This document shows, one piece after another, positions 28,444 through 48,724 of a stretch of DNA of 64,000 nt (position 1 is the first letter of the stretch; every line of letters starts with the position of its first letter). The stretch comes from Bosea sp. 685. Its GTDB lineage: Bacteria > Pseudomonadota > Alphaproteobacteria > Rhizobiales > Beijerinckiaceae. The stretch spans positions 496,001 to 560,000 of the forward strand of contig NZ_CP134779.1 of the NCBI RefSeq assembly GCF_031884435.1. Reading direction: 5' to 3'. Under the pieces are notes generated by a model. That model searched no databases. It was not told the DNA's origin and worked only from the letters and a program-made list of their open reading frames with translations. The position numbers were made by a program, and so were the translations under genes.

Positions 28444-28491
28444 GGCAGGGTTGATCGTCGCGATTTTGGGATTGTATCCAAAAACCGCGCC

Positions 28492-28632
28492 GTCATTCCG
28501 GGCGCAGCCCTCGGGTCCGGCCTTCGGCCGGCCCAAGGACAGGCTCCGCGGAGACCCGGAATCCCTTGTGGAGTGCGCCGCCCTTCGATGGATTCCGGAT
28601 CAGCGCCGCTTGCGCGGCTTGTCCGGAATGAC
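28492..28632. repeat. dispersed palindromic repeat before dppB copy 1
   Basis: 'cattccgggcgcagccctcg' and 'ggtccggccttcggccggcc' at the left, 'ttgtccggaatgacgggaga' at the right; same family as elements near 0.06, 11.5 and 13.3 kb. It lies between the binding-protein gene and dppB. Confidence 0.6.
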
Positions 28633-28668
28633 GGGAGATCGTTTGCCGAGCGCCTGCTGGTTTCGCCA

Positions 28669-30636: not shown

Positions 30637-30640
30637 ATCG

Positions 30641-31666
30641 TCACAGCGTTTCCGTGATCTTCTTCAGATGCGGTGGATTGTCGGGGTCATAGCCCATCGC
30701 GAGCGCCGTGCGCTCGATCATGCGATAGGCCGGGGCCAGCATGGCGATGGCGTCCGTGACCGGGTGATCGTCGCCGATCCAGGGCAGGCGCGAGTCCGGC
30801 CCGCCGGCCAGGTGCGCCGCGAGATGGGAGGCGTCGAGATTGGCGACCAGCGCGTCGACCGCCTCGGCGGTCTCGTCGCCGACCCGCAACGCCAGCACCG
30901 GGGTCTGGTCGGTGACGGCTGCGCGCGGCCCGTGCAGCAATTCGGCAGCGGAATAGGCGAGTGCCGGCAGGCGCAGGGTCTCGGCCATCTTGAGCGCGAT
31001 TTCGCGCGCCGGGCCCAAGCCGTAGCCGCGTCCTGCGATGAAGGCGGCGCGCGCCGTCGGCAGGCTCCGGCCGACCACGTCCCAATCGAGCCGCAACGCT
31101 TGCGACAGCCGCCCCGGCAGGCGCTCCAGCGCGGCCACGAGCTCGTGATCATCGGCGAGAAGAGCGACCAGCAGCGCGCCAAGCGCCATCGACCCGATCA
31201 CACTCTTGGTCGCGGCGACCGAGCGTTCTCGCCCCGCCTCGAGCGGCAGCACCCATTGGGCGGCCTGAGCCACGGGCGAGGCGATGTCGTTGAGGATGGC
31301 GACCGTGGCGGCACCTTCACGCCGGGCGGCCATCGTGGCCGCCACGAGGTCCGGGCTGCGGCCCGATTGCGAGATGACGATGAACAGTGCGCGGCGCAAC
31401 GCCACCGGCCGTTTCAAGCTGGTGATCACCGACGGCGCGGTCGCGGAAACGGGCACGCCGATACGCGTCTCCAAGAGATAGCGCAGATGGACGCCGGCAT
31501 GCCCGGAACTGCCGCGCCCGCAGATCACGGCGACATCGAAATCCATCCGCTGCAAGCGCGCTGCCAGCGCCGCGAGGTCACCGCGCGAGGCCATGATGCG
31601 AGCCACTACATCCGGGGCTTCGGCGGTTTCATTCGCCATTGCGGAGCCGAGCTCGAGATCCGTCAT
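30641..31666 (-). CDS. SIS-domain glucosamine-6-phosphate deaminase-like protein (NagB-II/GlmS isomerase type)
   Basis: 341 residues, two SIS domains: 'AVICGRGSSGHAGVHLRYLL' with 'VISQSGRSPDLVAATM', and 'AFIAGRGYGLGPAREIALKM'. There is no glutaminase domain, and the C-terminus 'DPDNPPHLKKITETL' resembles NagB-II and GlmS isomerase domains. The likely reaction is glucosamine-6-phosphate to fructose-6-phosphate plus ammonia, linking NagA and MurQ products to glycolysis. The perfect operator-like palindrome at 31805-31822 lies upstream. Start uncertain by a few codons (ATG at 31639 possible). Confidence 0.82.
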   Translation of the reverse strand: MTDLELGSAMANETAEAPDVVARIMASRGDLAALAARLQRMDFDVAVICGRGSSGHAGVHLRYLLETRIGVPVSATAPSVITSLKRPVALRRALFIVISQSGRSPDLVAATMAARREGAATVAILNDIASPVAQAAQWVLPLEAGRERSVAATKSVIGSMALGALLVALLADDHELVAALERLPGRLSQALRLDWDVVGRSLPTARAAFIAGRGYGLGPAREIALKMAETLRLPALAYSAAELLHGPRAAVTDQTPVLALRVGDETAEAVDALVANLDASHLAAHLAGGPDSRLPWIGDDHPVTDAIAMLAPAYRMIERTALAMGYDPDNPPHLKKITETL

Positions 31667-31991
31667 AGGTCGTTGGCCATTGCTTGACCGGCGCGGGGAG
31701 CGGCGACGGCCGAATTCGCTCCCTCCAGCGCATCGCCGGCCATCCCGGGGTGGGGATCGACGAAACGGTGACTGAGGCGTTCCGTCGGCATGGCTGGATT
31801 CCCTAGTGGTTATAGAACCACTTTAATGCCTTTCGTCATTCTAGCAATACCAATCGATGCGCGCCTGGGTAAAGTCGCTGCCACCGGATGACCGGAGTCC
31901 GTACCCGGCTCTCATCAAAAAGTGAGAGCCGGACCGACGCGAAAAACCGGTTCCCGCTGTTTCGCATCCAGCTCCAGCGCTGCTGGGTTCC
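31667..31991. other. intergenic region upstream of the SIS gene
   Basis: No gene is supported. It contains the palindrome described separately, an AATACCAAT half-site (31846-31854), and a short stem 'ctctcatcaaaaagtgagag' with 'gcgaaaaaccggttccc', related to the repeat at 61.68 kb. The first half is probably the SIS promoter region. Confidence 0.45.
31805..31822. promoter_or_regulatory. GntR/HutC-type operator upstream of the SIS gene
   Basis: AGTGGTTATAGAACCACT: perfect 7-base arms AGTGGTT / AACCACT around ATAG. It closely resembles known sites of NagR/DasR-type regulators (AGTGGTCTAGACCACT style). The two UTRA regulators in this window are the candidates. Confidence 0.65.
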
Positions 31992-33182
31992 TCAGATTGT
32001 CCCCGCCGCCTGCAACCGTTCGATCTCAGGGGCGCTCATGCCGAGCCAGTCCGACAGGATCTCGGCGCCGTGCTCGCCAAGGCCGGGCGCGCCGCGGCGA
32101 ATGACGGTGGGCGTGCCATGCAGCCGCACCGCAGGCGCCTGGAACGGCACCGAACCCATCACCGGGTGAGGCACGTCGACGATCTGCTTGCGATGCACCA
32201 CCTGCGGATTGGCGATGACGTCGGCGATGGTGGCGACGCGCTCGCAGGGTATGTCGGCTGCGTGGATGATCTCGAGAACGGCTTCGCCATCGCGCTCAGC
32301 TGCCCAGGCATCGATGATCGCCTCCAGCTCCGCGACATTGGCATTGCGGGCGACGAAGGTGGCGAAGCGCGCATCCTGCGCCAGCTCCGGCCGCCCCATT
32401 GCGGCGGCGAGCCGCGGGAAATGCACGTCGTTGCCGGCGACGATGTAGATCCAGATGCCATCCCGGCTGCGGAAGCAATGCGAGGGCGAGAGGTAGCGGT
32501 CACGGTTGCCAAGGCGCTCCGGCTCGCGCCCGAAGAGGATGCGCTCCGGAATCGCTGTGGTCATCAGCGCCATGCCGCTATCCATCAAGGTCGCCTCGAC
32601 GACCTGGCCGCGGCCGCTGGTCTCGCGCGCATGCAGCGCCGCGAGGGTACCGATCACTCCATAGAGCGCGGTCGAATAGTCGCAGACGAAGACGCCCGCC
32701 ATGGTCGGCGCGCCGCCTGCGGGTCCGGTCATCGCCATGACGCCGGACTGCGCCTGGGCGGCGCCGTCGAAGCAGGGGTGCTGGGCGAGCGGCCCTTCCT
32801 GCCCGAAGCCGGAGATGCGCACCATGATCAGGCGCGGATTCAGCGCGCTCAGCACGTCCCAGCCGAGCCCCATGGCCTCCATCGTGCCGGGCCGGAAGTT
32901 CTCGATCAGGATGTCGGCCGTAGCGGCGAGCTGCCGGAGCAGCGCCTGACCTTCCTTGTCGCGGAAATCGATGGCGAAGCCGCGCTTGTTGCGGTTGGCC
33001 GAGAGAAAGAACAGCGTGTCTCCCTCGACCGTCTCGCCGACGCGCCGGCCCTCCTCGCCGCCGTCGATGCGTTCGACCTTCACCACATCGGCGCCGAGAT
33101 CGCCCAGAAGTTGACCGCAGAACGGCCCGGCAATATAGCGCGAAAGGTCGATGATCTTTACCCCGTCAAGCGATGCCGGCAT
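31992..33182 (-). CDS. CaiB/BaiF family (class III) CoA-transferase
   Basis: 396 residues, class III CoA-transferase. Seen: 'VKIIDLSRYIAGPFCGQLLGD' region (start), 'NRNKRGFAIDFRDKEG', 'ENFRPGTMEAMGLG' and the catalytic Asp in 'GVFVCDYSTALYG' (about residue 167). The family moves CoA between carboxylic acids, often in catabolism of carnitine-, oxalate- or succinyl-type acids. Here the acid is unknown. AAGG lies ten bases before the ATG. It diverges from the MoaD-like gene across an AT-rich promoter gap (33183-33305). Confidence 0.9.
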   Translation of the reverse strand: MPASLDGVKIIDLSRYIAGPFCGQLLGDLGADVVKVERIDGGEEGRRVGETVEGDTLFFLSANRNKRGFAIDFRDKEGQALLRQLAATADILIENFRPGTMEAMGLGWDVLSALNPRLIMVRISGFGQEGPLAQHPCFDGAAQAQSGVMAMTGPAGGAPTMAGVFVCDYSTALYGVIGTLAALHARETSGRGQVVEATLMDSGMALMTTAIPERILFGREPERLGNRDRYLSPSHCFRSRDGIWIYIVAGNDVHFPRLAAAMGRPELAQDARFATFVARNANVAELEAIIDAWAAERDGEAVLEIIHAADIPCERVATIADVIANPQVVHRKQIVDVPHPVMGSVPFQAPAVRLHGTPTVIRRGAPGLGEHGAEILSDWLGMSAPEIERLQAAGTI

Positions 33183-33253
33183 GAATTCACCCTTCGGTTA
33201 TTGGCGCGTTTCTATAAAAATACTATAAATCTTGATTTTCTGAGAGATTGTTA

Positions 33254-33283
33254 TTGACATAAACGTCGATACCAGAATGTATT
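33254..33283 (+). promoter_or_regulatory. promoter of the MoaD-like gene
   Basis: A perfect TTGACA (33254-33259) and TGTATT after 18 bases, in an AT-rich gap. GATACCAG (33268-33275) in the spacer is a possible GntR half-site. The divergent CoA-transferase promoter probably lies around 33212-33232 (TATAGTATTTTTATAG on the minus strand). Confidence 0.5.
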
Positions 33284-33305
33284 ACGCTTGGAAATGGAGA
33301 TCCAT

Positions 33306-33557
33306 ATGAAAATTTCCTATTTCTCCTGGCTCCGCACCAAGACCGGCGTCCCCAATGAGGAGATCATCTTGCCGGCGCAATGCCGGACGGTTGACGACCT
33401 CGTGCGGCATCTTGCGGCGCGCTATCCGGCCCTGGCCGAGATCGCCGACGCCCGCGGCAGCATGCGCTTCACCGTCAATCGCCGTTACGTCGAGAATTCG
33501 CACGAGCTTGCCTCCGATGACGAGGTCGGGCTGTTCCCGCCGGTGACGGGCGGCTGA
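33306..33557 (+). CDS. MoaD/ThiS-like ubiquitin-fold sulfur carrier protein
   Basis: An 83-residue beta-grasp protein: 'MKISYFSWLRTKTG', 'CRTVDDLVRHLAARYPAL', 'FTVNRRYVENSHELASDDEV' and the C-terminal 'LFPPVTGG', ending exactly at Gly-Gly like MoaD. The C-terminal Gly is adenylated by an E1 and converted to a thiocarboxylate that donates sulfur. GGAG lies six bases before ATG at 33306. The 3' end overlaps the 3' end of the ThiF gene on the other strand by 73 bases. No MoaE or other molybdopterin genes are near, so a pathway-specific sulfur donor is more likely than cofactor synthesis. Confidence 0.88.
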   Translation: MKISYFSWLRTKTGVPNEEIILPAQCRTVDDLVRHLAARYPALAEIADARGSMRFTVNRRYVENSHELASDDEVGLFPPVTGG

Positions 33558-34330
33558 GTCAACGCTTCGCAGGTCAGGCAACCCACCCGGCGTGGCAGGG
33601 CGATGGCGTCGAGCGCGCAGCGCCAGGCGTCGTACATCATCAATGTGCCCGAGAGGCTCGGCCCCGTGCCCAGGACCTCCTTGATCACCTCGATGGCCTG
33701 CATCGAGCCGAGTGCGCCGACCGCCGGGCCGAGCACACCGATTTCGGAGCAGGACGGCGTCACCGCCGCTGGCGGCGTGTCCGGGAACAGGCAACGGTAG
33801 CAAGGGTGCGGCGGGCCGAGATAGGCCTTGAAGGTGGTGATCAGCCCGTCGGTGAGCTGTACCGCGGCGCTGACCAGCGGGATCTGTGCCGCAAGGCAGG
33901 CCGAATGCACGGCGTCCCGGGTGGCGAAATTGTCGCTGCCGTCTGCGACGATGTCGTAGCCGGCCACCAGCCCTGCCGCGTTCTCCGCGCTGATCGGCAT
34001 GTCGTGCCGGATGATCGCAACATGCGGGTTGAGCGCGCGCAGCGACTTCTCGGCGCTCTCGGTCTTCGGCATATCGAGCCGCTCGACCGAATGCAGGATC
34101 TGCCGGTGGAGGTTGGAGATCTCGACATAGTCGAAATCGACGATCCCCAGCGTGCCGATGCCGGCCGCGGCGAGATACAGCAGCAGCGGCGAGCCCAGCC
34201 CGCCGGCGCCGATCACCAGGACCCGGGCCGCCTTGAGCTTTTCCTGGCCGGAGACGCCGATCTCGGGCAGCACGGTCTGCCGCCGATACCATTGCAGCTC
34301 CTCGGGACTCAGCGTCTGGGGCATCCGCAT
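33485..34330 (-). CDS. ThiF/MoeB-type E1-like adenylyltransferase
   Basis: 281 residues. ATP loop 'GAGGLGS' (41-47), Asp in 'IVDFDYVEISNLHRQ', zinc cysteines 177/180 ('CYRC') and 251/254 ('CLTC'), and a MoeB-like Cys194 in 'TPSCSEIG'. It should adenylate the C-terminus of the MoaD-like partner encoded convergently. After the last zinc Cys the protein runs 27 residues further over the antisense of the carrier gene and contains its own 'PPVTGG' (260-265). The start MRMPQ is fixed by AAGGAGG nine bases upstream; a coupled ATG at 34378 is possible. Confidence 0.9.
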   Translation of the reverse strand: MRMPQTLSPEELQWYRRQTVLPEIGVSGQEKLKAARVLVIGAGGLGSPLLLYLAAAGIGTLGIVDFDYVEISNLHRQILHSVERLDMPKTESAEKSLRALNPHVAIIRHDMPISAENAAGLVAGYDIVADGSDNFATRDAVHSACLAAQIPLVSAAVQLTDGLITTFKAYLGPPHPCYRCLFPDTPPAAVTPSCSEIGVLGPAVGALGSMQAIEVIKEVLGTGPSLSGTLMMYDAWRCALDAIALPRRVGCLTCEALTQPPVTGGNSPTSSSEASSCEFST

Positions 34331-34374
34331 TCCGGCGCTCCTCCTTGCGTGCAATCCTGGCGGGCTGCCGCCGC

Positions 34375-34845
34375 TCATGCTTCCTGGGCCATCTGACGCC
34401 CGTCCGACGCGGCCGCTGCGGCCGCCCTGATGCGCTTGACCACCAGATACAGCCCATTGGCGCGACTTGGCGCGAGGCTGCGGCCGACGAGCAGCCGCTC
34501 GACCACCTCGGGCGAGTAGGCCAGGATCTCGTCCGGTCGCCGATCGCCATAGAGCCTGAGCACCATGGCGAGCAGGCCGCGCATCAGCATCGCGTCGGAA
34601 TCCAGCGCGAGCCGCATGCGGTCCTGGTCGGCGTCATGCTCGGCCACGACCCAGACCTGAGACTGGCAGCCCTTGACGCGGTTGTCCTCGCAGCAATCCT
34701 CCGGCGCCAGACGCGGCAGGCGCCGGCCGAGGCTGAGCACGTGCCCGACCCGTTCGGTGAAATCCGCGAAGGCGGCGAACTCGGCTTCGAGTTGCGCCGC
34801 GACTTCGGCGATGGATTCCTCGATCGGGCTGTCGAGCATGGTCAT
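34375..34845 (-). CDS. sufE: SufE family cysteine desulfuration protein
   Basis: 156 residues. The sulfur-accepting Cys60 is in the hallmark 'NRVKGCQSQVW'; an extra Cys pair (51-52) is just before it. SufE takes persulfide sulfur from a SufS-type cysteine desulfurase. In this operon, directly before ThiF, it most simply feeds sulfur to the MoaD-like carrier rather than Fe-S assembly, since no other suf genes are present. A second, housekeeping SufE probably exists elsewhere (inference). Confidence 0.9.
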   Translation of the reverse strand: MTMLDSPIEESIAEVAAQLEAEFAAFADFTERVGHVLSLGRRLPRLAPEDCCEDNRVKGCQSQVWVVAEHDADQDRMRLALDSDAMLMRGLLAMVLRLYGDRRPDEILAYSPEVVERLLVGRSLAPSRANGLYLVVKRIRAAAAAASDGRQMAQEA

Positions 34846-34899
34846 GGCCGACTCCGGCTTGATGACATTGGTCGTGCAGAGGGCTTGTTCCAGGCCGGT

Positions 34900-36039
34900 T
34901 CAGGCCCGCCTGGCCGTGGCCGGGCGGGTCGCGATCTGCCCTCCGGTCATCGGCCCGGCGACGCCGGTGGTGAGGGGGAAGCTCAACGGCATGCCGCGCA
35001 AAGCGCGGACCGCGAGAAAGGCGAAGCATTCGGCCTCGACCGCGTCGCCACGGAAGCCCACCGCCTCGGCTGGAACGACCTCGACCCCGGCGCGCTTCTG
35101 CAGCGCCGCCATGATCGCCGGATTCTTGCGCCCGCCGCCACAGACGATGAGCTTCGTCGGCCGTTGCGGCAACTGGTCGAGCGAGCGCCCGACCGTGCCG
35201 GCGGTGAAGGCGGTCAGCGTCGCTGCCCCGTCTGCCAGCGAAAGCCCTTCGGCCATGTCGGCGGTGAAATCGTAGCGGTCGAGCGATTTCGGATAGGGCG
35301 CGGTCAGATAGGGGTGGTCGAGCAAGCGGGCGAGCCGCTCCTCATCGACCGTGCCGCTGAGCGCCAGTGCGCCGTCGATATCCATCTCGCCCTTGCCGTG
35401 GCGCATGATCCAGTCGTTGATCGGCCCGTTGGCCGGCCCGGTGTCGAAGGCGTGGAACTCCTCGCCACCTGCCCACCAGGTGATGTTGCCGACCCCACCG
35501 AGGTTCAGCGCAGCCGCCTCGGGCCCCGCATTGATGCCGCGCAGCAGCGCGACGTGATAGCTCGCCGAAAGCGGCGCGCCATGGCCGCCGGCGCGCATGT
35601 CGGCAGTGCGGAAGTCGTAGACGACGTCGACGCCCAGCATGTCGGCCATCAAGCGCCCGTCGCCGAGCTGGCGTGTGTCGCCATGTCGGCCGGGCTCGGG
35701 CGCGCGGTGCAGCACCGTCTGCCCGTGGAAGCCGACAGCTGCGACATCGGACGGCGTCAGACCCGCCTCCGCCATGAAATCGGCCACCGCCTCGGACTGC
35801 GCCCGGGTCAACGCCGCCTCGGCTTCGGCGAAGATGGCGGGCTCCGGCCCTTCGAAGCGCCAGGCCAGCGCCGCCTCGACCGCGGCCGCGAGCAGGGCCC
35901 GGATGTCGGTCTTGTACGGAGCGAGCTTCCAGTGGCCGAACTCAGCCACATTCTCCCCATCGGTGCGGATCGACGCCACGTCGATCATCCCGTCGAGAAC
36001 TGTCCCGGTCATTAACCCGATAGCCCAAACCGGCTTCAT
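34900..36039 (-). CDS. anmK: anhydro-N-acetylmuramic acid kinase
   Basis: 379 residues, AnmK family: '[19 protein letters not shown]' at the N-terminus, '[12 protein letters not shown]', '[15 protein letters not shown]', '[10 protein letters not shown]', '[12 protein letters not shown]' and '[11 protein letters not shown]'. AnmK opens and phosphorylates anhydroMurNAc from cell-wall turnover to MurNAc-6-phosphate, the substrate of MurQ at 47.7 kb. ATG at 36039 follows AAGGGAG; a GTG three codons upstream is less likely. It lies in one operon with SufE and ThiF, an unusual partnership. Confidence 0.93.
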
Positions 36040-36117
36040 GCGCCGCACTCCCTTTCCGTTCCCAGATCCTAGTGATTCATAGTCAATTCGGCGCGGCGCG
36101 CATCACGGTTCATCGCC

Positions 36118-37116
36118 TCAGGCGGCCAGGCGGTGCTTGGCGTAGACCTGACCCTCCGGCTTCCGGCAGGTCTTGCAATGGCCGACGCTGCAGCGGCCCT
36201 GCGTTTCCATGCGGTCGCGGAAGGCCAGTCCGCGCTCCAGCACCTGCTCGGCGCTCTCCTCGAAGAGATTGCCGATCACGCCGTGCTGGCCGTGGCTGAT
36301 GATGCAGATCGAAACCTTGCCGTCCGGCGCCAGGCACATGACATGACCGGCCCAGAAGCAGGCGCCGCTCGGCACGGGCAGTTTGGGGTTGACGTCTTGC
36401 ATCATGCGCTGGTGCAGCTTCTCGTCGCTTTCGAGATCCGACAGGGAGGCGACGTCGTGATGCGCGCCGCCGGGCAGCAGCGGCGTGACCTTGACGTGGT
36501 CGTCGACGCGTTCGAGCAGGCGCAGGAAAGCCGGATCATAGCTCTCGATCGGTTCGCCGAGGTCGATCTGGTAAACTCCGACCTTGACGTGCTCGTCGCC
36601 GGCCGCCTCCTCGAGCAAGATCTCGAGCCCACGCAGCGTGCGCAGGAAGGTACCCTCGCCGCGGTTGAGATCGTGAGACAGTGCGTTGCCGCCGTCGATC
36701 GAGACGAAAATCTTGTGCCGGTGCTTCACCTCGAGCAGCTGCCGCGCCCGCTTCCTGGTCAGCATCGTGCCGTTGGTGTGCCATTGCAGCTGGGTGTCCG
36801 GCATGATGTCGCGCGTGACCGCCAGAAGTTCGTGGAAACGGTTGTTCATCAAGGGCTCGCCGCGCCAGTTCAGGTGGATGGTCTTCACCTCGAGCGCCGG
36901 CGATTCCTTGAGCTTGATCAGGGCCTGCTCCAGATCGGCCGGATCGAGGTCGAGCTTGCCGTGACTTTCCTTGGTGTAGCAAAGGCGACACGCCAGATTG
37001 CAGCGTGTCGTCGGGTCGAGCCAGAGCCAGACGGGCGAAGGAGTGGCCCCCTGGGCGGTGTTTGCATGCAGCATAGCCTTGGCCTCCGGGTTGAATTGCC
37101 CTTGCATGATTGCCAT
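36118..37116 (-). CDS. radical SAM protein with SPASM-type auxiliary cluster domain
   Basis: 332 residues. The SAM cluster motif is C39-x3-C43-x2-C46 ('TRCNLACRLCY'), followed by 'LNWRGEPLMN' (GxP region). Six further cysteines (253, 261, 271, 309, 314, 317; 'CSVGHCKTC') fit a SPASM auxiliary Fe-S domain. Relatives modify peptides or catalyse sugar/alcohol dehydrogenation; the absence of a precursor-peptide gene nearby and the sugar context favour a small-molecule or sugar substrate (inference). In-frame codons extend to 37248, but that part looks non-coding, so ATG at 37116 is preferred. Confidence 0.88.
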   Translation of the reverse strand: MAIMQGQFNPEAKAMLHANTAQGATPSPVWLWLDPTTRCNLACRLCYTKESHGKLDLDPADLEQALIKLKESPALEVKTIHLNWRGEPLMNNRFHELLAVTRDIMPDTQLQWHTNGTMLTRKRARQLLEVKHRHKIFVSIDGGNALSHDLNRGEGTFLRTLRGLEILLEEAAGDEHVKVGVYQIDLGEPIESYDPAFLRLLERVDDHVKVTPLLPGGAHHDVASLSDLESDEKLHQRMMQDVNPKLPVPSGACFWAGHVMCLAPDGKVSICIISHGQHGVIGNLFEESAEQVLERGLAFRDRMETQGRCSVGHCKTCRKPEGQVYAKHRLAA

Positions 37117-37328
37117 GGCCGGCCTGCCGCCCGGCGCACGCGCCGGGCCTGTTCTTGACGGCAGAAATACGCGCCGCCCTGCGGCGGCCAACCCTGTGCA
37201 ACCTCGAAACGCCCCACCACGGCGCTCGCTGCGCCGGTCGACCTCCATGCGTGTTCGATCATGGCCCCGCGGCGCGTCACGGGGACGCCGCCTCGGCAGC
37301 CGGGAGAGAGTGTGTTTCGCGTATTTTT

Positions 37329-37362
37329 ATAGGACCACTTTAGTATCGGAATAATACCACTG
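37329..37362 (-). promoter_or_regulatory. candidate GntR operator/promoter of the radical SAM gene
   Basis: On the minus strand AGTGGTATTA (about 37364-37353) and AAGTGGTCCTAT (37340-37329) lie about 12 bases apart, the second overlapping a TATAAA -10-like box. ATAGGACCACTT here matches ATAGGACCAATT at 39858-39869 in 11 of 12 bases. Confidence 0.55.
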
Positions 37363-37389
37363 CGTCAAACGATCCACCGCGCCGGACGC

Positions 37390-38439
37390 TCACGCCGGAG
37401 CCGGCGTCCGGAGAAATTTCGTCTCGTCATGTGCCGGAAAACCACCCTCGCGCGGGTAATAGATTGGTACGCACCAATGGTTCGTGGCGGCCCATTCCGT
37501 ATTCGGCAGCGAGACGTCCTGGCCGAATATCCGATGGCACGGCAATTCGTAGACCTTGCCGGTCGAGACCGGGATCTCATCGAAGACGATGTATTTGTAG
37601 AAGCCGCTCGACATGCCGGCGGGCAGGCGCACGCGGTTGGGGTGGTGCTGGTCCAGCACGTCGCGGGCATAGGCCTGCTTCCAGGCCACGATCTCGCCGA
37701 GGCGGCGGGTCTGCACCACGCCCAGCGCGGCCCGGAACTCGTCCAGGCGGTGGTTGAGGCTGCGCACCTTGTAGCGCGAGCCGCGCCCGTAATCGCGGTA
37801 GCTGCGCAGGTGCCGCACCATCTCGTCATTGGTGCTGACGGCGATGCCGCCCTCGGCCGTGGAGATCGTCTTGGTGGCATAGAAGGAGTAGAGGCCAACC
37901 TCGCCCCAGCTCCCGGGCTTGCGGCCGTTCCAGTCCGCGCCCGCAGCATGGGCGCAGTCCTCGAACAGGACGATGCCCTTCTCGCGGCAATAGGCGGCGA
38001 TGCGCTCGATGTCGAAAGCGATGTGCCCGCCGATATGAACGATCCAGGCGAGTTTGGGCTTCACCATCTCGGCCTTGGCGACGAAGTCGTCATAGGAGCC
38101 GCAGAGATCCTCGCGGTTGCAGTCGTAGAACACGATTTCGGCGCCGGCGAGCTGGGAGGCGCGCGGCGTCGCCAGGAAGGTGTTCGACGGGCACAGCACC
38201 GTCTCGCCGGCGACGCCGACGAAATCCAGCGCGGCCAACGCGGCCCCAGCCCAGTTATCGAAAGCGACGGAGGCGAGACCGTTCCAGTCCCGCCACAGCG
38301 CTTCGAACTCCTCGATCTGTTCGCCATGGCTCCAGCGCTGCGAGCGCAGCACTTTGCGCCAGCGCGCCATCACTTCGTCCTCGTCGCGGTCGTCGAAACC
38401 GACGGTGAAGGGCATTGGCGGCGGCATGGCGGGGGTCAT
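37390..38439 (-). CDS. DegT/DnrJ/EryC1/StrS family aminotransferase
   Basis: 349 residues. PLP lysine at about 190 in 'SFYATKTISTAEGG', preceded by the cofactor Asp in 'VLFEDCAHAAGADW'; 'CPSNTFLATPRASQLAGAEI' and the C-terminal 'CVPIYYP' region fit DegT enzymes. The family makes amino sugars of cell-surface glycans and natural products by transamination of keto-sugars, usually as nucleotide sugars. ATG at 38439 (MTPAMPPP) has GGAG upstream; the frame is open to 38517. It is transcribed toward the radical SAM gene. Confidence 0.9.
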   Translation of the reverse strand: MTPAMPPPMPFTVGFDDRDEDEVMARWRKVLRSQRWSHGEQIEEFEALWRDWNGLASVAFDNWAGAALAALDFVGVAGETVLCPSNTFLATPRASQLAGAEIVFYDCNREDLCGSYDDFVAKAEMVKPKLAWIVHIGGHIAFDIERIAAYCREKGIVLFEDCAHAAGADWNGRKPGSWGEVGLYSFYATKTISTAEGGIAVSTNDEMVRHLRSYRDYGRGSRYKVRSLNHRLDEFRAALGVVQTRRLGEIVAWKQAYARDVLDQHHPNRVRLPAGMSSGFYKYIVFDEIPVSTGKVYELPCHRIFGQDVSLPNTEWAATNHWCVPIYYPREGGFPAHDETKFLRTPAPA

Positions 38440-38517
38440 GGGCTTTGCGCTCCGGTGCTGATCGATGGCGCCTCGCAGCGCCAGATTTTCGAATTCACCA
38501 AATTTCTGCAGTTGCAA

Positions 38518-38596
38518 TCCGCAGACAATACGAATCTATGGTAGTAGTCAATCAGATTATTATAGTAATTTTACGAATACTATTCCATAAAATGAA
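38518..38596 (-). promoter_or_regulatory. AT-rich promoter region of the DegT gene
   Basis: Markedly AT-rich against a GC-rich background. The minus strand carries a perfect TATAAT (38564-38559) and, further upstream, GGTATTATAG (about 38609-38600). Between the flavin-monooxygenase-like gene's stop and the DegT start, this suggests the aminotransferase has its own promoter. Confidence 0.45.
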
Positions 38597-39841
38597 CTAT
38601 AATACCGTATCTTCTACGCCAACACCAAGCATAAATCCGCCAAGTGAGCGACCTTGAGCTTCGCTTTGATTGGCCGCATGCTGACGCGCGGCGGCGATAT
38701 CGGCGAGATACCGCCCGAAAGGATGGCTCTTCGCCAGCCCGGAGGCGCCGCAGGCCTTGAACAGCCTCGCGGCAAGCAAGGTGCAGCGTTCGGCCGCCAT
38801 CGTCGCCTGCAGGCGGTAGACCATGCGCTGTGGGATCGGCGCCTGCTCGCCGCGGCGGGCATAATCCGTCAGCCGCGCGAAGTTGCGTCCCATCATGGCG
38901 GTGATCTCGTCGAGGGAGGCCTCGACCTCGGCGACGATGAGCTGGGCCACCGGATCGCGCGCCACGGCCTGGCCGGTGACGGCGACGCGGGCGCGGCTAT
39001 GGTCGAGGAAGGCGTCAAGGAAGCCCTGCAGTGCCCCCACCGCCGGCATGGTGATGGTGCGGAACAGCAGTTGCGGCAGCGGCAGCCGGTAGAGCGGGGC
39101 CGTGTTGATCGCGAGCCCCGGGCTGGTGCCGAGGAAGCGGTCGATATGCCGGTGCGCGCGGTGCTCGGGAACGAAGATGCTCTCCACCGTGACATCTTGG
39201 CTGCCGGTGCCGCGCAGCCCCGTTGTGTCCCAGTTGTCATGCACGAGGGCGTCGGCGCGGGGCACGAGGAAGACGCGCAAATCCGGCAGCGCGCCTGATG
39301 CCCCGGCTGCCGTTTCGGGCGTCTCGGCGTTTACGCTGCCGGCGAGTATCAGCCAGTCGCAATAGTCGGAACCGCTGGCGAAGCCCCAGCGCCCGCTGAG
39401 TCGGAAGCCGCCGCCGACCGGCGTCGCCTTGCCTGTCGGCATGTAGCTGCAGGCGAGGAGAGCGTCGGGATCCTCGCCCCAGACATCGTCCTGCGCGCGT
39501 TCGTCGAACAATGCGAGGTGGAAGGCGAGTACCCCCATCACGCCCTGCAGCCAGCCGGCCGACATGTCGCCCTCGGCGAGCGCCGCCTGGATGATGAAGA
39601 AGGTCTCGGGGTCGAGTTCCGGCCCGCCATAACGCTGCGGCTGCAGCAACCGGAACAGCCCGGCCGAACGCATGGCATCCATCACGATCGGCGAGAGCCG
39701 TGCATCGCGATCGCCGTCCCCGGCCTTGCTGCGCAGCAGGGGGATCAGCGCCCGAGCCCGCGTCAACGCTGCAGCACGAGACTCCTCCGCCGCGGCACTG
39801 GGCGGGGCGGAAAATGATCGAAATACGCTAGCATTCTGCAT
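38597..39841 (-). CDS. acyl-CoA dehydrogenase-fold flavin-dependent monooxygenase (group D type)
   Basis: 414 residues with acyl-CoA dehydrogenase architecture: N-terminal helices ('MRSAGLFRLLQPQRYGG'), a middle beta domain ('GFRLSGRWGFASGSDYCDW', 'TGLRGTGSQDVTVESIFVP') and C-terminal helices. The 'FRLSGRWGFASG' and 'GLRGTGSQD' blocks, and the lack of an obvious catalytic Glu, resemble HsaA/HpaB-like oxygenase components, which use reduced flavin and oxygen. A reductase partner is not adjacent. ATG at 39841 follows GAGGAG; ATAGGACCAATT lies directly upstream. Confidence 0.8.
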   Translation of the reverse strand: MQNASVFRSFSAPPSAAAEESRAAALTRARALIPLLRSKAGDGDRDARLSPIVMDAMRSAGLFRLLQPQRYGGPELDPETFFIIQAALAEGDMSAGWLQGVMGVLAFHLALFDERAQDDVWGEDPDALLACSYMPTGKATPVGGGFRLSGRWGFASGSDYCDWLILAGSVNAETPETAAGASGALPDLRVFLVPRADALVHDNWDTTGLRGTGSQDVTVESIFVPEHRAHRHIDRFLGTSPGLAINTAPLYRLPLPQLLFRTITMPAVGALQGFLDAFLDHSRARVAVTGQAVARDPVAQLIVAEVEASLDEITAMMGRNFARLTDYARRGEQAPIPQRMVYRLQATMAAERCTLLAARLFKACGASGLAKSHPFGRYLADIAAARQHAANQSEAQGRSLGGFMLGVGVEDTVL

Positions 39842-40219
39842 GGCCACACTCCTCGAGATAGGACCAATTCGAATTATCTTCGCTTTCGCCTGCGATGTGT
39901 TGGCAAACGGCGAGGCCGTCTAACGATGGATAAAATATCGAATAATATCAGTAGAATTGGACTGTTCAGCTTCGGAGATGATCAAAACAGGGCCATTTGA
40001 GATCTTACGCTGAATTCTCGGCGGACATCCAGTGGCAGAAAGCCGTCATAGAGGTCGCCGAGAACCCTCTCAAGAGCAATACCTATCCTGTACCAATCTG
40101 TCTATTGCGTGACGGGAAAGAGAACGCCATCCTGAATCGGAGCGGCACTGCCGCAGGCATGAATCCGGCGGTCGCGCCGGCACAAGCGCTACCTGCGCGA
40201 AGCCGCTCCGGGAGAGCCG
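39842..40219. other. divergent AT-rich promoter region
   Basis: No gene is supported in this 378-base gap. ATAGGACCAATT (39858-39869) lies close to the minus-strand start. On the other side, AATACC (40079-40084) and TACCAAT (40091-40097) lie before the TIM-barrel gene. The stretch 39925-40030 is unusually AT-rich. Confidence 0.5.
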
Positions 40220-41272
40220 ATGACCGAGGCCGTTTTCGCCCTGAAGGCCGCGCTGGCCGATCCCGCTCAACTGGAGGCCCGCGCTGCATGGCTCGCCGGC
40301 GCCGGCCGGCCCATCGTGCTGGAGCTGCATACCTTCGGCGCGCGCGACATCGACACGACCGCCGGCCTCGCCGCCTCCCGCGCGACGGTGACCCAGCTGC
40401 GGGAACATCACGCGGTCGAGCGCCTGATCGTGCATGTGCCCGTGCAGCAGGTGCCCGTGGTGACGCAGGTCGATTTTGACGCCGGCCAATGCCAGAGGGC
40501 GATCGCCTTCGCGGCGGAGATCGGCGCCGAGGCGGTCGTGCTGCATCGCTATTTCGATCTGGTTTTCGGGGATGCGCCGCCCCGCGCCACCTCGAAGCTG
40601 GAGGCGGTCGCGCGCTTTAACGCCATTATTCACGACCTTGCCCGTCTCGCGCCCGAAATCAGGCTGCTGGTCGAGAATATCGGGCACTACTCGCTGCTGC
40701 CGCGCGATGGCCGAACTTACCTCAGCGGACCGCTCGACCATTTCTTCCCTTGGGAGATCAGCGCCTTCCGCCGCTTCTGCGCGCAGGAAGGGCTGACCAA
40801 TGTCGAGCCCTTCGTCGACGTGGCGCACGCCACGCTCTCGGCCAATCTGTTCAACCGCCGCAAGCTGCACTTCACTGAGACGGTCGACGATCCGCGCTTC
40901 GCCTGGATCACGCCGGACGATCTCGATCAGGCGGAATGGCTGGCGCCCTTCGATTTCGTCGATCCTGCGATGAGCTACCTCCATGTCTCGGACGCCAGCC
41001 TGCTTGATGCGGCCGAACTTGCGGAGCCGAACCTGCCCGAAGCGCGTCTCGTCGAGGGCATCGTCAGCGAGGGGCTGGAAATCTGTACGGGCAATCTGCC
41101 TTTTGCGCTGCTGCCAAGCCGGCTGGGACAGGGGACGCCGACGCTTGTCGTCGAGGTCGAGCCAGGAGCCGGTGAAACGCATATCGACAACGGCGCCCAG
41201 CTCCGCTCGCTCGAACGGCTCTCGGCGCTGTTCGACCGGGCGCCGGCGTCACATCGACCCGATGGCTCATAA
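40220..41272 (+). CDS. xylose isomerase-like TIM-barrel protein (sugar isomerase/epimerase family)
   Basis: 350 residues, AP-endonuclease-2/xylose-isomerase-like barrel. Likely metal ligands appear in 'RLLVENIGHYSLL' (Glu), 'EPFVDVAHATLSANLF' (Asp/His), 'MSYLHVSDA' (His) and 'TLVVEVEPGAGET' (Glu), in family order. Members isomerise or epimerise sugars and sugar acids. The substrate is unknown; context suggests a step on an amino-sugar or keto-sugar. GGAG is five bases before the ATG. It is followed by the GntR gene on the same strand. Confidence 0.75.
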   Translation: MTEAVFALKAALADPAQLEARAAWLAGAGRPIVLELHTFGARDIDTTAGLAASRATVTQLREHHAVERLIVHVPVQQVPVVTQVDFDAGQCQRAIAFAAEIGAEAVVLHRYFDLVFGDAPPRATSKLEAVARFNAIIHDLARLAPEIRLLVENIGHYSLLPRDGRTYLSGPLDHFFPWEISAFRRFCAQEGLTNVEPFVDVAHATLSANLFNRRKLHFTETVDDPRFAWITPDDLDQAEWLAPFDFVDPAMSYLHVSDASLLDAAELAEPNLPEARLVEGIVSEGLEICTGNLPFALLPSRLGQGTPTLVVEVEPGAGETHIDNGAQLRSLERLSALFDRAPASHRPDGS

Positions 41273-41483
41273 CAGCCTCTAGCCTTTGGATAAGGGCGCG
41301 TTCGCGGAATGAATCGATGTTAAACTCGTTTCGTCTGGCATAATCTCGATCCGCGGCCCCTGAGGCTTTTCAAGCATCGGCGGGGTGGAGCGTGTCGGCT
41401 CCCGGCGCAGCAGCACCCGTCGCGAGACGCTGCGGCCGAGTTCCGGTGCGCTTCGCGTAGCGCGGACATAAACAGACGAACGG

Positions 41484-42335
41484 ATGATGACGAAGCAGCC
41501 GTCGAATCGCGCCCGGTCGACGGTCGCCGAGCAAGCATCTGAAGCGGGGGACGCCGTCCGGCGCAATGTGCGGACGGAGCTCCTCGCGGCACTCAACCCG
41601 GCAAGCGCAACGCCGCGCTATCTACAGCTCGCCTCGGCCCTCCGCTACCTGATCCAGCGCGACGTCTTTCGCGCTGACGAGGCGTTGGCATCGGAGCGCG
41701 ACCTGGCGGCCTGGACCAATTTCGCACGCATCACGGTGCGTCGCGCGATCGAGGTGCTGCTGGGGGAGGGCATCCTGACACGGCGGCAAGGCTCAGGCAC
41801 CTATGTCACCCGCCGCATCGAGCAGCCTCTCTCCGTGCTGGCGAGCTTCACCGAGGAGATGTCCTCGCGCGGGCGTCGGGCCGGCTCGACCTGGATCTCC
41901 AAAGAGGTCGCGCGGGTCTCCTCCAGCGAGGCGCTGGCGCTGGGCCTGGATCCTGGCGAGTCCGTACTGCGCCTCTCCCGGGTCCGCACTGCCGAGAACG
42001 AACCGCTGGCTATCGAGATCGCGGCCGTGCCCGCCTCTTTGCTGTCCTCGCCGGATCTGGTGGGGGATTCCCTCTATGCGGCGCTCGCGACCGCCGGCTG
42101 CCGGCCGGCGCGGGGCGTGCAGCGTCTGCATGCCTCGCTCGCCACCACGCAGGAGGCCAAGCTGCTGATGATCCCGCCCGGCAGCGCCGTGCTCCGGATC
42201 GAGCGCCGCGCCTTCCTCGCCAATGGCCGCCCGATCGAGTTCACCGTCTCTGCCTATCGCGGCGACCGCTATGATTTCGTCGCGACGCTGCGTTCCAGCC
42301 CGAGCGAGGCCAATGGCGAGGGCGAGGGCAGCTGA
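41484..42335 (+). CDS. GntR family regulator with UTRA domain (HutC subfamily), paralogue 1
   Basis: 283 residues: a 35-residue basic N-terminal tail, winged HTH ('ASERDLAAWTNFARITVRRA', 'LTRRQGSGTYVT'), and a UTRA ligand domain ('LRLSRVRTAENEPLAIE', 'AVLRIERRAFLANGRPIEFT', 'AYRGDRYDFV'). UTRA regulators of this type often sense amino-sugar phosphates. It is clearly paralogous to the regulator at 46952. It probably controls the block through the TACCA/TGGTA sites described here. Confidence 0.92.
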   Translation: MMTKQPSNRARSTVAEQASEAGDAVRRNVRTELLAALNPASATPRYLQLASALRYLIQRDVFRADEALASERDLAAWTNFARITVRRAIEVLLGEGILTRRQGSGTYVTRRIEQPLSVLASFTEEMSSRGRRAGSTWISKEVARVSSSEALALGLDPGESVLRLSRVRTAENEPLAIEIAAVPASLLSSPDLVGDSLYAALATAGCRPARGVQRLHASLATTQEAKLLMIPPGSAVLRIERRAFLANGRPIEFTVSAYRGDRYDFVATLRSSPSEANGEGEGS

Positions 42336-42364
42336 CGCAACCTTCGCGTAGAGCCGCCCTCGCC

Positions 42365-43867
42365 TTAGACTTTTTCCGCCACGATCTTTCGGGCGGGTTC
42401 CCAGTGGGCCGGAGGCTGGAAGGGGGCCGTGTCTGCAGCCTGATCGGCGAAGCCGCGCACCCGGCCGCAGGCGCAATCGCCCTTGCGGCGCTGCGGACGG
42501 TCGACGGCGCCGAGGCATTCGGCCACCAGATCGAGCTGGAGGCGCTCGAATTTGGGATCGAAGCGCCCGGTCAGCCAGCCGATGACGAAGCCCGCCGCCA
42601 GCGTTCCCGCCGTCGTGGTGATGTAGCCCACCGTGTCGATCTGTGGGATCGCGCTGGCGATCGGGTCTGGCCGCTCACCGCGCGCGACGGCCGCCTCGGC
42701 TTCGGCCTTAGCGGCCTCGCGCTCGCTGGTCGACATCAACTCCTGCCGGAAGCGGGTCGGGTTTATCATGCCCCGGCACTGCGGGCAGGGATCCTCCGGG
42801 AGGAAGCGGACGAGTTGGACGATCTGCCCCGTGACCACCCCGTTCGCGCCCTCGATCAACCCGCCGGTGTCGAGCGCCGGCATGGCGTAGCGCCGCGCGA
42901 TGTCGGACACCGCGAGCCGGCTCGTATGCTGGTCGGTGCAGCCCATCAGGACATCGGCCTGGATCACGGCGTCGATGATCTCGGGCTGGGGCAGCCGGCC
43001 GATCCAGGTCTCGACGATCACGTCGGGCGACATGCCGGCGACATGGCGACGTGCGATCGTGACCTTGGGCACAGCATCCGCCGCGTCCTGCGGCACGCTG
43101 CCATGCAGCCTTTCCAGATTGGATTCGCTGGCATGGTCGGAATCGATCACGATCAGGCGTCCGACCCCGGCGCGCGCCAGGATCGGGATCGCGGCCGAGC
43201 CGGTGCCTCCGGCGCCGATCAGCGCCACGGTCGCGCGCTGGAGCCGCTGGTAGGCCTCCTTGCCGAAGGCGCTGGTCAGCCTGGCCACGCGCTCGGGCGG
43301 GATCGGAGGGGCGGGTGGGCGCTCGCCGCGCGGCCAGGCGACTACGTCGGGCCGGCGTGCCGCCGCCACGCGTGTCACCTCCCGCCAGATGCCGCCGTGG
43401 AAGATGCGGCCCGAGACCGCGATCTCCTTGCCGGTGTCGCCTGCGAACTCTGACATGATGATGCTGAGATAGGGGCGGCCCGGCGCGAAATCGGCAAAAT
43501 ACTCCGCGTAATAGCGATCCATCTCATCATCGATGGAGCTTGGCCGGGGCGGAGCGCCTTCGGGATGCGAGTGGATGATGCCGATACCAAGCGCATGCCG
43601 CTCCGCTGCGAGCGCGATCCGCCGCGAATAGCGGGCCGAAATCTTCACATCCGCGACGCTGTCGTCGAGATCGCCCTCAGCCGGCTCGTCGAGCGCAGCC
43701 AGAGTCACGACGAGCCCTTCCGGCGTCTCGCGCCAGCCGAAGCGCGCGAAACTCGCCCATTCCTTGTGCGGATAGCGCCGGAAGACGAGGCGCTCGAGGA
43801 GGTCGAACTCCGGCGAGGCGAAGCGCAACAGCGCTGTCGGCTCCGCCATGCGATGGAGGGCGTTCAC
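42365..43867 (-). CDS. JAB/JAMM peptidase-ThiF E1 fusion protein
   Basis: 500 residues. Residues 1-165 are a JAMM domain: Glu36, then H99-S-H101, and Ser110-x2-Asp113 in 'HSHPEGAPPRPSSIDD', a complete zinc-peptidase motif. Residues 200-455 are an E1/ThiF domain: 'GAGGTGS' (218-224), 'VIDSDHASESNLERLHG', 'GCTDQHTSR', and zinc cysteines 361/364 and 465/467. The JAMM part would trim a ubiquitin-like partner to Gly-Gly and the E1 part activate it. The GTG start overlaps the partner's stop by 4 bases (GTGA), with GGAG upstream. No E2-like gene is near. Confidence 0.92.
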   Translation of the reverse strand: MNALHRMAEPTALLRFASPEFDLLERLVFRRYPHKEWASFARFGWRETPEGLVVTLAALDEPAEGDLDDSVADVKISARYSRRIALAAERHALGIGIIHSHPEGAPPRPSSIDDEMDRYYAEYFADFAPGRPYLSIIMSEFAGDTGKEIAVSGRIFHGGIWREVTRVAAARRPDVVAWPRGERPPAPPIPPERVARLTSAFGKEAYQRLQRATVALIGAGGTGSAAIPILARAGVGRLIVIDSDHASESNLERLHGSVPQDAADAVPKVTIARRHVAGMSPDVIVETWIGRLPQPEIIDAVIQADVLMGCTDQHTSRLAVSDIARRYAMPALDTGGLIEGANGVVTGQIVQLVRFLPEDPCPQCRGMINPTRFRQELMSTSEREAAKAEAEAAVARGERPDPIASAIPQIDTVGYITTTAGTLAAGFVIGWLTGRFDPKFERLQLDLVAECLGAVDRPQRRKGDCACGRVRGFADQAADTAPFQPPAHWEPARKIVAEKV

Positions 43868-44145
43868 GCGCGCTCTCCGGCCGGCGACCCGCCCATCACA
43901 TATTGGCGCGTGACCAGGAATTGCTGGCCAGGCGCGAGCGTGACGGGCGCATCCAGCACCAACTCGGTGGGTTCGCCATCGCTCGCTTCGATCTCGACCA
44001 CGGCGTTCTCCGCCGGCACCCCGAGCAGGGCGGCGATGCCTGCGCCTGTCACCCCCGGCTTGACCTCGAACCGCCTGCGATTGACGAAGATGACGACGGC
44101 GCTGGACGTCGTCTCATCACCGGCGGGGTTTGTCGTGCTGCTCAT
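43864..44145 (-). CDS. ubiquitin-like protein with processable C-terminal tail
   Basis: 93 residues. A flexible Ser/Thr-rich tail (1-15) precedes a beta-grasp-like core: 'AVVIFVNRRRFEVKPGVTGA', 'IAALLGVP', 'AVVEIEAS', 'ELVLDAPVTLAPGQQFLVTR', similar in pattern to the prokaryotic multi-ubiquitin (Multi_ubiq) domain. It ends 'QYVMGG' (Gly85-Gly86) plus SPAGERA, so cleavage after Gly86 by the overlapping JAMM-E1 protein would expose Gly-Gly. AGGAGG lies six bases before ATG at 44145. The fold is inferred from pattern and partner. Confidence 0.75.
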   Translation of the reverse strand: MSSTTNPAGDETTSSAVVIFVNRRRFEVKPGVTGAGIAALLGVPAENAVVEIEASDGEPTELVLDAPVTLAPGQQFLVTRQYVMGGSPAGERA

Positions 44146-44718
44146 CGCTTGCCTCCTGGGGACGCTGCAAAGCCTTGGGTTCAAAAAAGCCTTAGGTTCA
44201 AACTTTGGGTTCGAGCGCATGCGTGCGGCCCAGCGGCCGCTCGCGAATACCTGCGGCGAGGCAAGGCGCAATCATCGGCGCGGCTGCCTGCGGCAATACC
44301 AATATGAAACCAGATAGCCGCAACTTTGGGTAGATAGTCAAGGACGGACCGGATCATCGTTAAGGGCAGCCCAATCCGCGATGGAAGCATTGAACGATCG
44401 GCGAGGCAGGGGTATCCCACTCGAGGCCCGTGAAGCTCTTTCTCTGCGTCGATGGCGGCGGCAAGGGCTGCCGACCGTGGATCGATATGCGGCATGGGCT
44501 GTTGTTGACGCTGGGCGATGCGATGGCGGGCGTGTTGTTTCTCGCCGACCGTCCCTGAAAATTCCGCCGTCGCGGGCGGGCAGGGATGTAAGTGGCTTGC
44601 AATTGGTATTCTCGAAGATTACCAATTTAGAACCGGATGGATGCTGGCATCGTCCGCCCAACGCACGGGCAGTCTCCGCCCGCGCCTGCAGTCAAAACCG
44701 AGTCAGTCAAACCGCATC
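44146..44718. other. divergent promoter region with operator-like sites
   Basis: No convincing gene in this 573-base gap. Near the Ub-like gene are three tandem 'GGTTCAAA/GGTTCGAG'-type units (44164-44216) and a stem TGCGGC...GCCGCA (44289-44320) holding AATACCAAT (44295-44303). The right part carries the palindrome at 44601-44627 before dppB copy 2. Confidence 0.5.
44601..44627. promoter_or_regulatory. GntR-type operator before dppB copy 2
   Basis: Perfect 8-base arms AATTGGTA and TACCAATT separated by 11 bases. The left arm with flanks ('ttgcaattggtattct') also occurs at 26834-26849 upstream of the binding-protein gene, so both transport units appear to share a regulator. Confidence 0.65.
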
Positions 44719-48612: not shown

Positions 48613-48630
48613 TTGCGGCAGGCTCTCAAG

Positions 48631-48672: not shown

Positions 48673-48724
48673 GTCCAGGCTACCGCAATCGCCAATCCGC
48701 CCCGGCCGAGTGTGAAGCATCGCG

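Follow-up and report, generated by a model that had tools for sequence, protein, structure and literature searches.

An 11-Gene Module Conserved as a Unit

The 64-kb stretch of Bosea sp. 685 analysed here (positions 496,001–560,000 of contig NZ_CP134779.1; hereafter "the window," whose own numbering is used throughout) carries a block of genes that a first-pass annotation, made from the sequence alone, had singled out as a candidate undescribed pathway. Pfam and NCBIfam searches of the window's open reading frames (ORFs) recovered every named part of that block where the annotation had placed it. Comparison with other genomes defines a core module of 11 genes, i.e., those for a CaiB-type coenzyme A (CoA)-transferase, a MoaD-like sulfur carrier, a MoeB-like E1 enzyme, a SufE-like sulfur acceptor, AnmK, a radical S-adenosylmethionine (SAM) enzyme, a DegT aminotransferase, an HsaA-like oxygenase, a TIM barrel protein, a fusion of a JAB (JAMM) peptidase with a second E1 (JAB-E1), and a ubiquitin-like protein (Ubl). 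The block is flanked on either side by a copy of the same permease pair and lies within a larger amino-sugar locus (MurQ, NagK, MurA, and NagA); the annotation had mentioned neither this setting nor the tie to murein-sugar import and catabolism.

When all block genes were searched for with tblastn, 11 of 11 core genes were found in 12 of 13 distinct loci, the window counted; the genes are not scattered, which by the annotation's own criterion would have refuted its idea, and the conserved co-occurrence that it had put forward as a check was borne out. The thirteenth locus, in a Sphingopyxis metagenome-assembled genome (MAG), holds 10 of the 11 and its contig begins inside JAB-E1. Counted among the 12 complete loci is that of a MAG named Rhodobacteraceae (L023), the oxygenase of which is cut by the contig end. 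The hosts, scattered among soil and marine bacteria, are Bosea (four), Stappia (three), Salinarimonas, Terrarubrum, Caulobacter sp. S45, Sphingopyxis, Chelatococcus, and the MAG named Rhodobacteraceae; in Terrarubrum the gene order is shuffled and all 11 core genes are kept, on a 435-kb plasmid. For this comparison, cross-matches between E1 and JAB-E1 of <200 aligned residues were dropped. The extent of the block was thus right insofar as it encloses one conserved unit, but that unit comprises 11 genes, with the NagB-II and GntR genes assigned to a neighbouring, separable locus.

Carriers of the module are few. A radical SAM protein search matched 4 of 199 genomes of the same family, the window's own included, and 10 loci in named genomes, with a 97% match in Bosea sp. 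OK403 and B. psychrotolerans. The TIM barrel gene occurs in 4 of 67 Bosea genomes (of which G1230 and G1190, with agreeing coordinates and contig positions, were treated as L016 and L017), and in class, order, and phylum samples—drawn, like the family sample, evenly from larger groups—the window's own genome was the sole match (1/385, 1/289, 1/297, and 1/398). Plasmid searches with JAB-E1 and with the TIM barrel returned Terrarubrum as the sole match. Three protein homologue searches scored only candidates sharing most words with the query, and two of the homologue lists represent the best 120 of 134 and the best 120 of 342; among such candidates, the TIM barrel has 79 homologues, the weakest at 2e-52 with a limit of 1e-10, and every copy with a visible neighbourhood sits in the module. 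Because 12 of 13 loci are complete while few genomes in the samples carry it, the module is rare, patchy, and apparently mobile, yet kept whole.

Two further matches lie outside this pattern. One TIM barrel homologue from the eukaryote set (P0278, in a record labelled Tetstr1; 57% identity to the window protein) is probably bacterial contamination. A match on a Sphingopyxis fribergensis plasmid (L029:12683–14601) was rejected as a module, as it consists of only a SPASM fragment related to the module's radical SAM enzyme. Its neighbours are a ceramidase-like gene and a Tn3 transposase, and no other core gene accompanies it; the plasmid gave one more match, to the Ubl (3e-5), which runs antisense to an annotated transposase.

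A Putative Sulfur Arm and Its Carrier

At one end of the module, CaiB (31992..33182, minus strand; PF02515, 1.2e-126) is a single-domain type III CoA-transferase of 396 residues. Its closest solved relative is SUGCT, a succinate-type CoA-transferase, and its catalytic-type Asp, D168, is invariant in 12 of 12 orthologues. Beside it lie the MoaD-like carrier (33306..33557, plus; 83 residues ending PPVTGG; PF02597, 1.7e-17), the MoeB/ThiF-like E1 (33485..34378, minus; PF00899, 1.1e-71), and the SufE-like acceptor (34375..34845, minus; PF02657, 2.5e-33). The carrier scores 72.1 bits against TIGR01682, above the cut-off of 66.15. Its terminal PPVTGG and the GCQS of SufE are each invariant in 12 of 12 orthologues, and the Cys of the TPxC motif of the E1 is invariant in the nine rows displayed. 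A sulfur role is supported by the invariant SufE and carrier motifs together with the E1. A reading of this part of the block as plain moaD and moeB was rejected in view of other copies elsewhere in the genome, namely two further ThiS/MoaD matches above cut-off and another, slightly better-scoring ThiF-family gene.

The 3' ends of the carrier and E1 genes overlap convergently (33485–33557). The PPVTGG tail of the carrier is also encoded antisense, within the C-terminus of the E1, such that it reads as itself in a shifted frame. Seven of the nine E1 rows displayed have this antisense PPVTGG, and three Stappia E1 rows terminate exactly there.

A Second Carrier and Its Probable Trimming

The first-pass annotation had assigned each of two Gly-Gly carriers its own E1 and listed a JAMM peptidase besides. 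Both E1s are present, but the peptidase is not separate: it and the second E1 form one 500-residue fusion protein (42365..43867, minus; PF14464, 3.2e-6, and PF00899, 1.8e-32). The adjoining Multi_ubiq-type Ubl (43864..44145, minus; PF14452, 3.5e-7) has the tail VMGG followed by SPAGERA; its ORF reaches 44271, and orthologues begin near 44145. A C-terminal [VI][ML]GG is found in 12 of 12 readable Ubls, and the claim of two Gly-Gly carriers stands. In profile searches against solved structures, JAB-E1 has Citrobacter BubCD as its best relative (6.2e-26), and the alignment includes the HSHP motif.

The JAB motif is intact in 6 of the 12 readable loci (four Bosea, Salinarimonas, and Terrarubrum; for the last two it was read from the alignment, the regular expression being too strict for both), and there the Ubl extends 7 to 10 residues past Gly-Gly. 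The remaining six loci (those of Caulobacter, Chelatococcus, three Stappia, and the MAG named Rhodobacteraceae) have a dead or missing JAB, and their Ubl stops exactly at Gly-Gly; the most informative is Caulobacter S45, which retains the JAB domain, with HxHP reading RCRP. Since a capped Ubl accompanies every intact JAB, and the Ubl stops at Gly-Gly wherever the JAB is dead or absent, the JAB is likely the peptidase that trims the Ubl. The JAB losses represent two independent events, not six, because the loss groups stand apart on a concatenated tree. (Rows of L023, a near copy of L022, were omitted from this tree; the DegT row of L016, cut short by a stop at codon 20, before the likely start, gave a false long branch.) Among the 120 JAB-E1 homologues listed, ranked by similarity, HxH is kept in 119 (115 by pattern and four by eye), and the one exception comes from Caulobacter S45. 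Proteins of Chelatococcus and Stappia, in which the JAB motif is missing, are not among the 120. These lineages offer a natural experiment on the maturation of bacterial Ubls, as those without a JAB encode a Ubl already ending at Gly-Gly, and the trimming idea is directly testable with purified proteins.

A Putative Amino-Sugar Arm

The module's AnmK (34900..36048, minus; PF03702, 6.7e-74, 249.6 bits) scores 488.4 bits against NF007141 (cut-off 352) and belongs to a distinct subclade: module AnmKs cluster with a support of 1.000, in a clade joined by two lone AnmKs from Bosea genomes that lack the module. The four clade members displayed have the motif MTGTxxDG, and three others displayed have [MI]SGTSxDG. 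A second AnmK lies elsewhere in the window's genome (G000:C2:5148094). The module AnmK may be a kinase acting on 1,6-anhydro-N-acetylmuramic acid. The two lone module-type AnmKs (L060:84–1265 and L061:9379–10830) sit beside apparent dTDP-sugar genes.

The radical SAM enzyme (36118..37116, minus; PF04055 and PF13186) is of the BtrN-like twitch/SPASM type. A profile of 49 homologues, compared with solved structures, ranked BtrN first (1.2e-15), followed by the cytosylglucuronate decarboxylase BlsE (1.5e-12), both of which act on sugars. In these 49 sequences C39, C43, and C46 of the CX3CX2C motif are invariant, as are C271, C314, and C317 of the auxiliary cluster, with C253 conserved in ≥90%; all four auxiliary-cluster Cys align with those of BtrN. 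BtrN oxidises an aminocyclitol by two electrons, and its auxiliary cluster has four Cys, in contrast to MoaA, where this cluster has an open iron site (PMC9012708). An AlphaFold2 (AF2) model (predicted local distance difference test score, pLDDT, 87.8) gave BtrN the top Z score (19.6), tied with SuiB (19.4) and anSME (18.9), and a Foldseek search with the model placed anSME first and BtrN ninth. By profile, the sequence of the protein comes closest to that of the sugar-alcohol dehydrogenase BtrN.

Next to it is a DegT/DnrJ/EryC1/StrS aminotransferase (37390..38517, minus; PF01041, 3e-50), in which the TKT motif of the pyridoxal phosphate-type Lys is invariant in the nine rows displayed. Its real start is probably near 38439, because Bosea OK403 carries a stop upstream of that position. 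A comparable arrangement exists on a plasmid of Croceicoccus marinus (L028:11755–26212), where a class III aminotransferase gene comes after a distant radical SAM gene (33%); AnmK, NagA, MurQ, NagK, and NagB-II belong to the same locus, as do a HAD phosphatase-like protein, an SSF symporter, and a TonB receptor. This locus may encode a simpler pathway, a second one acting on the same substrate. Radical SAM enzyme and aminotransferase are thus paired again in an amino-sugar locus, the aminotransferase coming from another family, which is the main reason to suggest that a ketone is formed and then aminated on an amino sugar.

Two further enzymes complete the arm. The TIM barrel protein (40220..41272, plus) belongs to a small family with the xylose-isomerase/ketose-3-epimerase-like fold, with four metal ligands at the strand ends. 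The group D flavin monooxygenase (38597..39847, minus; PF08028), of the acyl-CoA dehydrogenase (ACAD) fold, has as its best solved relative the 3-HSA hydroxylase oxygenase (2e-71). ACAD-fold enzymes of the KijD3/ORF36 type N-hydroxylate amino sugars. We do not claim that role here: HsaA-type hydroxylases, C2 hydroxylase, and XiaF are the nearest solved structures, and no sequence among the 14 at E ≤ 1e-5 carries the name of an N-hydroxylase.

The Module Is Placed on a Murein-Type Amino-Sugar Locus

Upstream of the block lie a family-5 solute-binding protein (SBP) and two permeases (26926..30479, plus; PF00496 and PF00528), a peptide/muropeptide-type importer, followed by a NagB-II-like glucosamine-6-phosphate deaminase (30641..31666, minus; NF046059, 257 bits, under the cut-off of 430). 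Downstream are the second permease pair (44703..46514, plus), a GNAT protein, a GntR/UTRA regulator (46952..47720, minus; PF07702, 1.3e-35), and amino-sugar catabolic genes (47719..52393), with MurQ, NagK, and MurA on the minus strand and NagA on the plus strand. The NagA call rests on a match to the annotated nagA of Terrarubrum and on Pfam amidohydrolase.

As far as the 13 locus sequences reach, NagB-II is near the module in eight, SBP in nine, and the permeases in 11. Bosea G1192, which is module-less, has all of SBP, permeases, GNAT, MurA, NagK, NagA, NagB-II, GntR, and MurQ, with an AnmK of another type (45.5% identical). In G091, a module-less genome of the genus Salinarimonas, permeases, SBP, NagK, GntR, and MurQ are present and JAB-E1 was not found. 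MurQ was not found at E ≤ 1e-40 in seven of the eight module-less Bosea searched. Because the neighbouring gene set occurs without the module (Bosea G1192 and, in part, G091) and varies among module loci, we distinguish two layers: a murein-type locus for the import and salvage of amino sugars and, set upon it, the 11-gene module. MurA was considered as a resistant target copy and not claimed as such, as its GGCAIGARP motif retains the Cys and MurA is also in the plain Bosea locus.

Candidate operators span both layers. The annotation's suggestion of operons with common operator half-sites was upheld, as TTGGTAT occurs six times in the window vs. 0.66 expected, a count that 0 of 100 shuffles reached. 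Five of the six are upstream of SBP (26840..26846, plus), NagB-II, Ubl, the second permease copy, and MurQ (the others at 31847, 44296, 44603, and 48663), and one is inside JAB-E1; shorter half-sites (TGGTAT) occur in the CaiB/MoaD and radical SAM/DegT gaps. Similar sites precede the importer in Salinarimonas, Stappia indica, and Chelatococcus, MurQ in Salinarimonas and Terrarubrum, and the radical SAM gene in Salinarimonas, Terrarubrum, and Caulobacter. A GntR/UTRA (HutC-type) gene within the block (41484..42335, plus; PF00392 and PF07702), which occupies the same place in the module of Bosea and Salinarimonas, is likely the regulator of the locus. A GntR/UTRA regulator that senses an amino-sugar phosphate would be the likely reader of the TTGGTAT sites, which presumably resemble the dre-site of NagR.

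A Proposed Pathway and Its Alternatives

Amino-sugar chemistry is supported by the linkage to AnmK, MurQ, NagA, and NagB and by the BtrN-like radical SAM and DegT enzymes. The annotation had envisaged an amino-sugar-derived, perhaps sulfur-containing product, and both chemistries find support in genes and motifs, while the making of a sulfur compound is something we infer. In our judgement the most likely reading, with about even odds, is that this is an accessory biosynthetic module on a murein-type amino-sugar locus, co-induced with it, and that recycled murein sugars are its starting material for an amino-sugar metabolite that is extra-aminated and contains sulfur. The reactions, their order, the substrate, the role of the regulator, and the product are all what we infer.

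Specifically, the peptide/muropeptide-type ATP-binding cassette (ABC) importer would import anhydro-amino sugars, one of which the module AnmK would open and phosphorylate. The BtrN-like enzyme would oxidise a ring hydroxyl to a ketone, the epimerase-like TIM barrel would reset the centre next to the ketone, and the keto group would give way to an amine through DegT. With SufE and the MoeB-like E1, the MoaD-like carrier would be charged with sulfur as a thiocarboxylate; CaiB would make the CoA ester of a carboxylate, which would take the carrier sulfur. The HsaA-like oxygenase would add a hydroxyl, and the Ubl, trimmed by the JAB and then adenylated by the fused E1, would serve as a second carrier. 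If this is true, the product would belong to a class of amino-sugar metabolites, containing sulfur and derived from recycled murein sugars, that is so far undescribed, and two ubiquitin-like carriers would be dedicated to making it.

A more specific form of this proposal, which we regard as speculative and improbable in its detail, starts from peptidoglycan (own or prey). Here the radical SAM and DegT pair would oxidise and aminate a ring carbon of (anhydro)muramic acid released by AnmK; CaiB would activate the lactyl carboxylate, which would turn into a thiocarboxylate with sulfur supplied by the MoaD-like carrier. The result would be an amino-thio-muramic compound, perhaps a thiolactam or metal chelator, and two Ubl carriers, one of them produced with a cap that the JAB removes, would act in series.

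Some observations on the half-sites weigh against co-regulation. In relatives, several matches fall inside genes, these being raw counts, and the two plain loci hold just 2 and 1 matches in 19.9 kb. As an alternative to biosynthesis, the module could be a catabolic extension that breaks down an amino sugar of an unusual kind, or a modified muropeptide, from the adjacent transporter; in favour of this, the half-sites are common to the importer and the module is linked with MurQ, NagA, and NagB. The radical SAM enzyme, TIM barrel, oxygenase, and CoA-transferase would dismantle the compound, DegT would deaminate it, and the sulfur carriers would feed a cofactor or remove a group. The nearest solved relatives of the oxygenase and CoA-transferase (HsaA and SUGCT) are catabolic, and the module is rare, and plasmid-borne in Terrarubrum. 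ATP-consuming carrier systems and sulfur relays are, however, typical of synthesis and not of degradation, and the module has two such carrier systems plus a relay; furthermore, the amino-sugar loci of Bosea G1192 and Salinarimonas-genus G091 manage without it. We consider catabolism the strongest rival, because the module has sites in common with importer and salvage enzymes, though in itself it seems rather unlikely.

Alternatively, the Ubl and JAB-E1 could work as a Bub- or SAMP/TtuB-like pair for conjugation, with enzymes of the pathway as its targets; the remainder would be a separate pathway under its control. The BubCD match of JAB-E1 and the Multi_ubiq match of the Ubl are consistent with this, and TtuB and the SAMPs serve both as sulfur carriers and as tags. 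Yet Pfam found no E2 among the 11 core proteins, a 23-row JAB-E1 alignment contains no invariant Cys beyond the CxxC/CxC pairs and GCTD, and JAB-mediated deconjugation would be unneeded in the 6 of 12 loci where the JAB is dead or gone. Protein modification appears doubtful.

Still less credible is peptide maturation, in which a carrier or small peptide would be the radical SAM substrate, akin to a ribosomally synthesised and post-translationally modified peptide. While the top Foldseek matches, anSME and SkfB, modify peptides or proteins and many NCBIfam peptide maturases match below their cut-offs, the sequence profile prefers BtrN and BlsE, and the Ubl tail past Gly-Gly varies, with 6 of 12 loci lacking it, and so is not a conserved core peptide. 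Assembly of a molybdopterin-like cofactor with MoaD, E1, and a MoaA-like radical SAM enzyme is the least probable of these alternatives and very hard to sustain: the carrier exceeds its TIGR01682 cut-off and MoaA is among the structural relatives of the radical SAM enzyme, but the 11 core proteins include no MoaC or MoaE family and no MoaA above cut-off, the genome has further ThiS/MoaD and ThiF-family genes, and the auxiliary cluster is four-Cys as in BtrN where that of MoaA has an open iron site. Finally, a phage or defence island was rejected, with no relative of JAB-E1 or the radical SAM enzyme on viral contigs, weak generic PADLOC matches only (E1, JAB, and viperin for the radical SAM enzyme), and 46.4 bits against a cut-off of 320 for the 6A-MBL component of the anti-phage 6A-MBL/E1-E2 system model.

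Relation to Known Systems

Each arm of the module has a known model, while their combination and the tie to murein sugars were found nowhere among the titles and abstract openings of the literature searched (most subscription papers and all preprints lay outside it); the annotation's statement that no described cluster has this set agrees with this.

For the sulfur arm, the model is the thioacid cassette. The thiocarboxylic acid of thioplatensimycin is made by a type III CoA-transferase with sulfur carriers, and related genes are in the pyridine-2,6-dithiocarboxylic acid (PDTC), thioquinolobactin, and yatakemycin clusters (PMC6006322; PMC1779556). The cassette (PtmA3/PtmU4; QbsL/K, PDTC OrfJ/I, YtkG/F) resembles the module in its type III CoA-transferase, Gly-Gly carrier, E1, and JAB/JAMM (PMC6006322 and PMC1779556, Table 1 row 4a), and in carriers capped past Gly-Gly, with two extra residues in PtmS2 (PMC6006322). 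However, the CoA-transferase there is two-domain, whereas the 396-residue CaiB has one PF02515 stretch; its partner there is an acyl-CoA synthetase, whereas no AMP-binding family occurs among the 11 core proteins; and in the module the JAB is part of the second Ubl/E1 pair, and amino-sugar genes take the place of aryl acid genes for the scaffold. By analogy, the sulfur arm may work like the thioacid cassette, though it is not a member.

For the amino-sugar arm, the model is 2-deoxystreptamine biosynthesis, where BtrS is the DegT partner of BtrN. There, too, the twitch radical SAM enzyme has a four-Cys auxiliary cluster (PMC9012708) and adjoins a DegT aminotransferase, but the module core is without inosose synthase, is linked to AnmK and murein sugars, and has low sequence identity. 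The second carrier recalls the Bub operons and the polyUbl operons of Iyer row 6e in its N-terminal JAB on E1 and its Multi_ubiq-type Ubl. Unlike these, the module has no E2/RWD protein, is embedded in a metabolic setting, and has lost the JAB in some lineages; its Ubl is single (one PF14452 stretch), whereas that of row 6e is tandem. Murein salvage loci (AnmK, MurQ, NagA, NagB-II, and NagK; e.g., the module-less Bosea G1192) share enzymes and importer, to which the module adds the separate-subclade AnmK and 10 extra genes.

The Flanking Permease Copies

The two permease pairs (28650–30480 and 44703–46514) are 98.2% identical over 1814 aligned bp in the window. In Bosea G1240 the copies are 99.8% identical, yet between the two species they are 91.6–94.3% identical (the 91.6% alignment includes flanks). 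CaiB and MurQ are 96.7% and 96.2% identical, respectively, between the same two species. Because the copies are more alike within a genome than between species, despite these values for CaiB and MurQ, we read the pattern as a sign of gene conversion between them. Recombination between the copies would excise the module.

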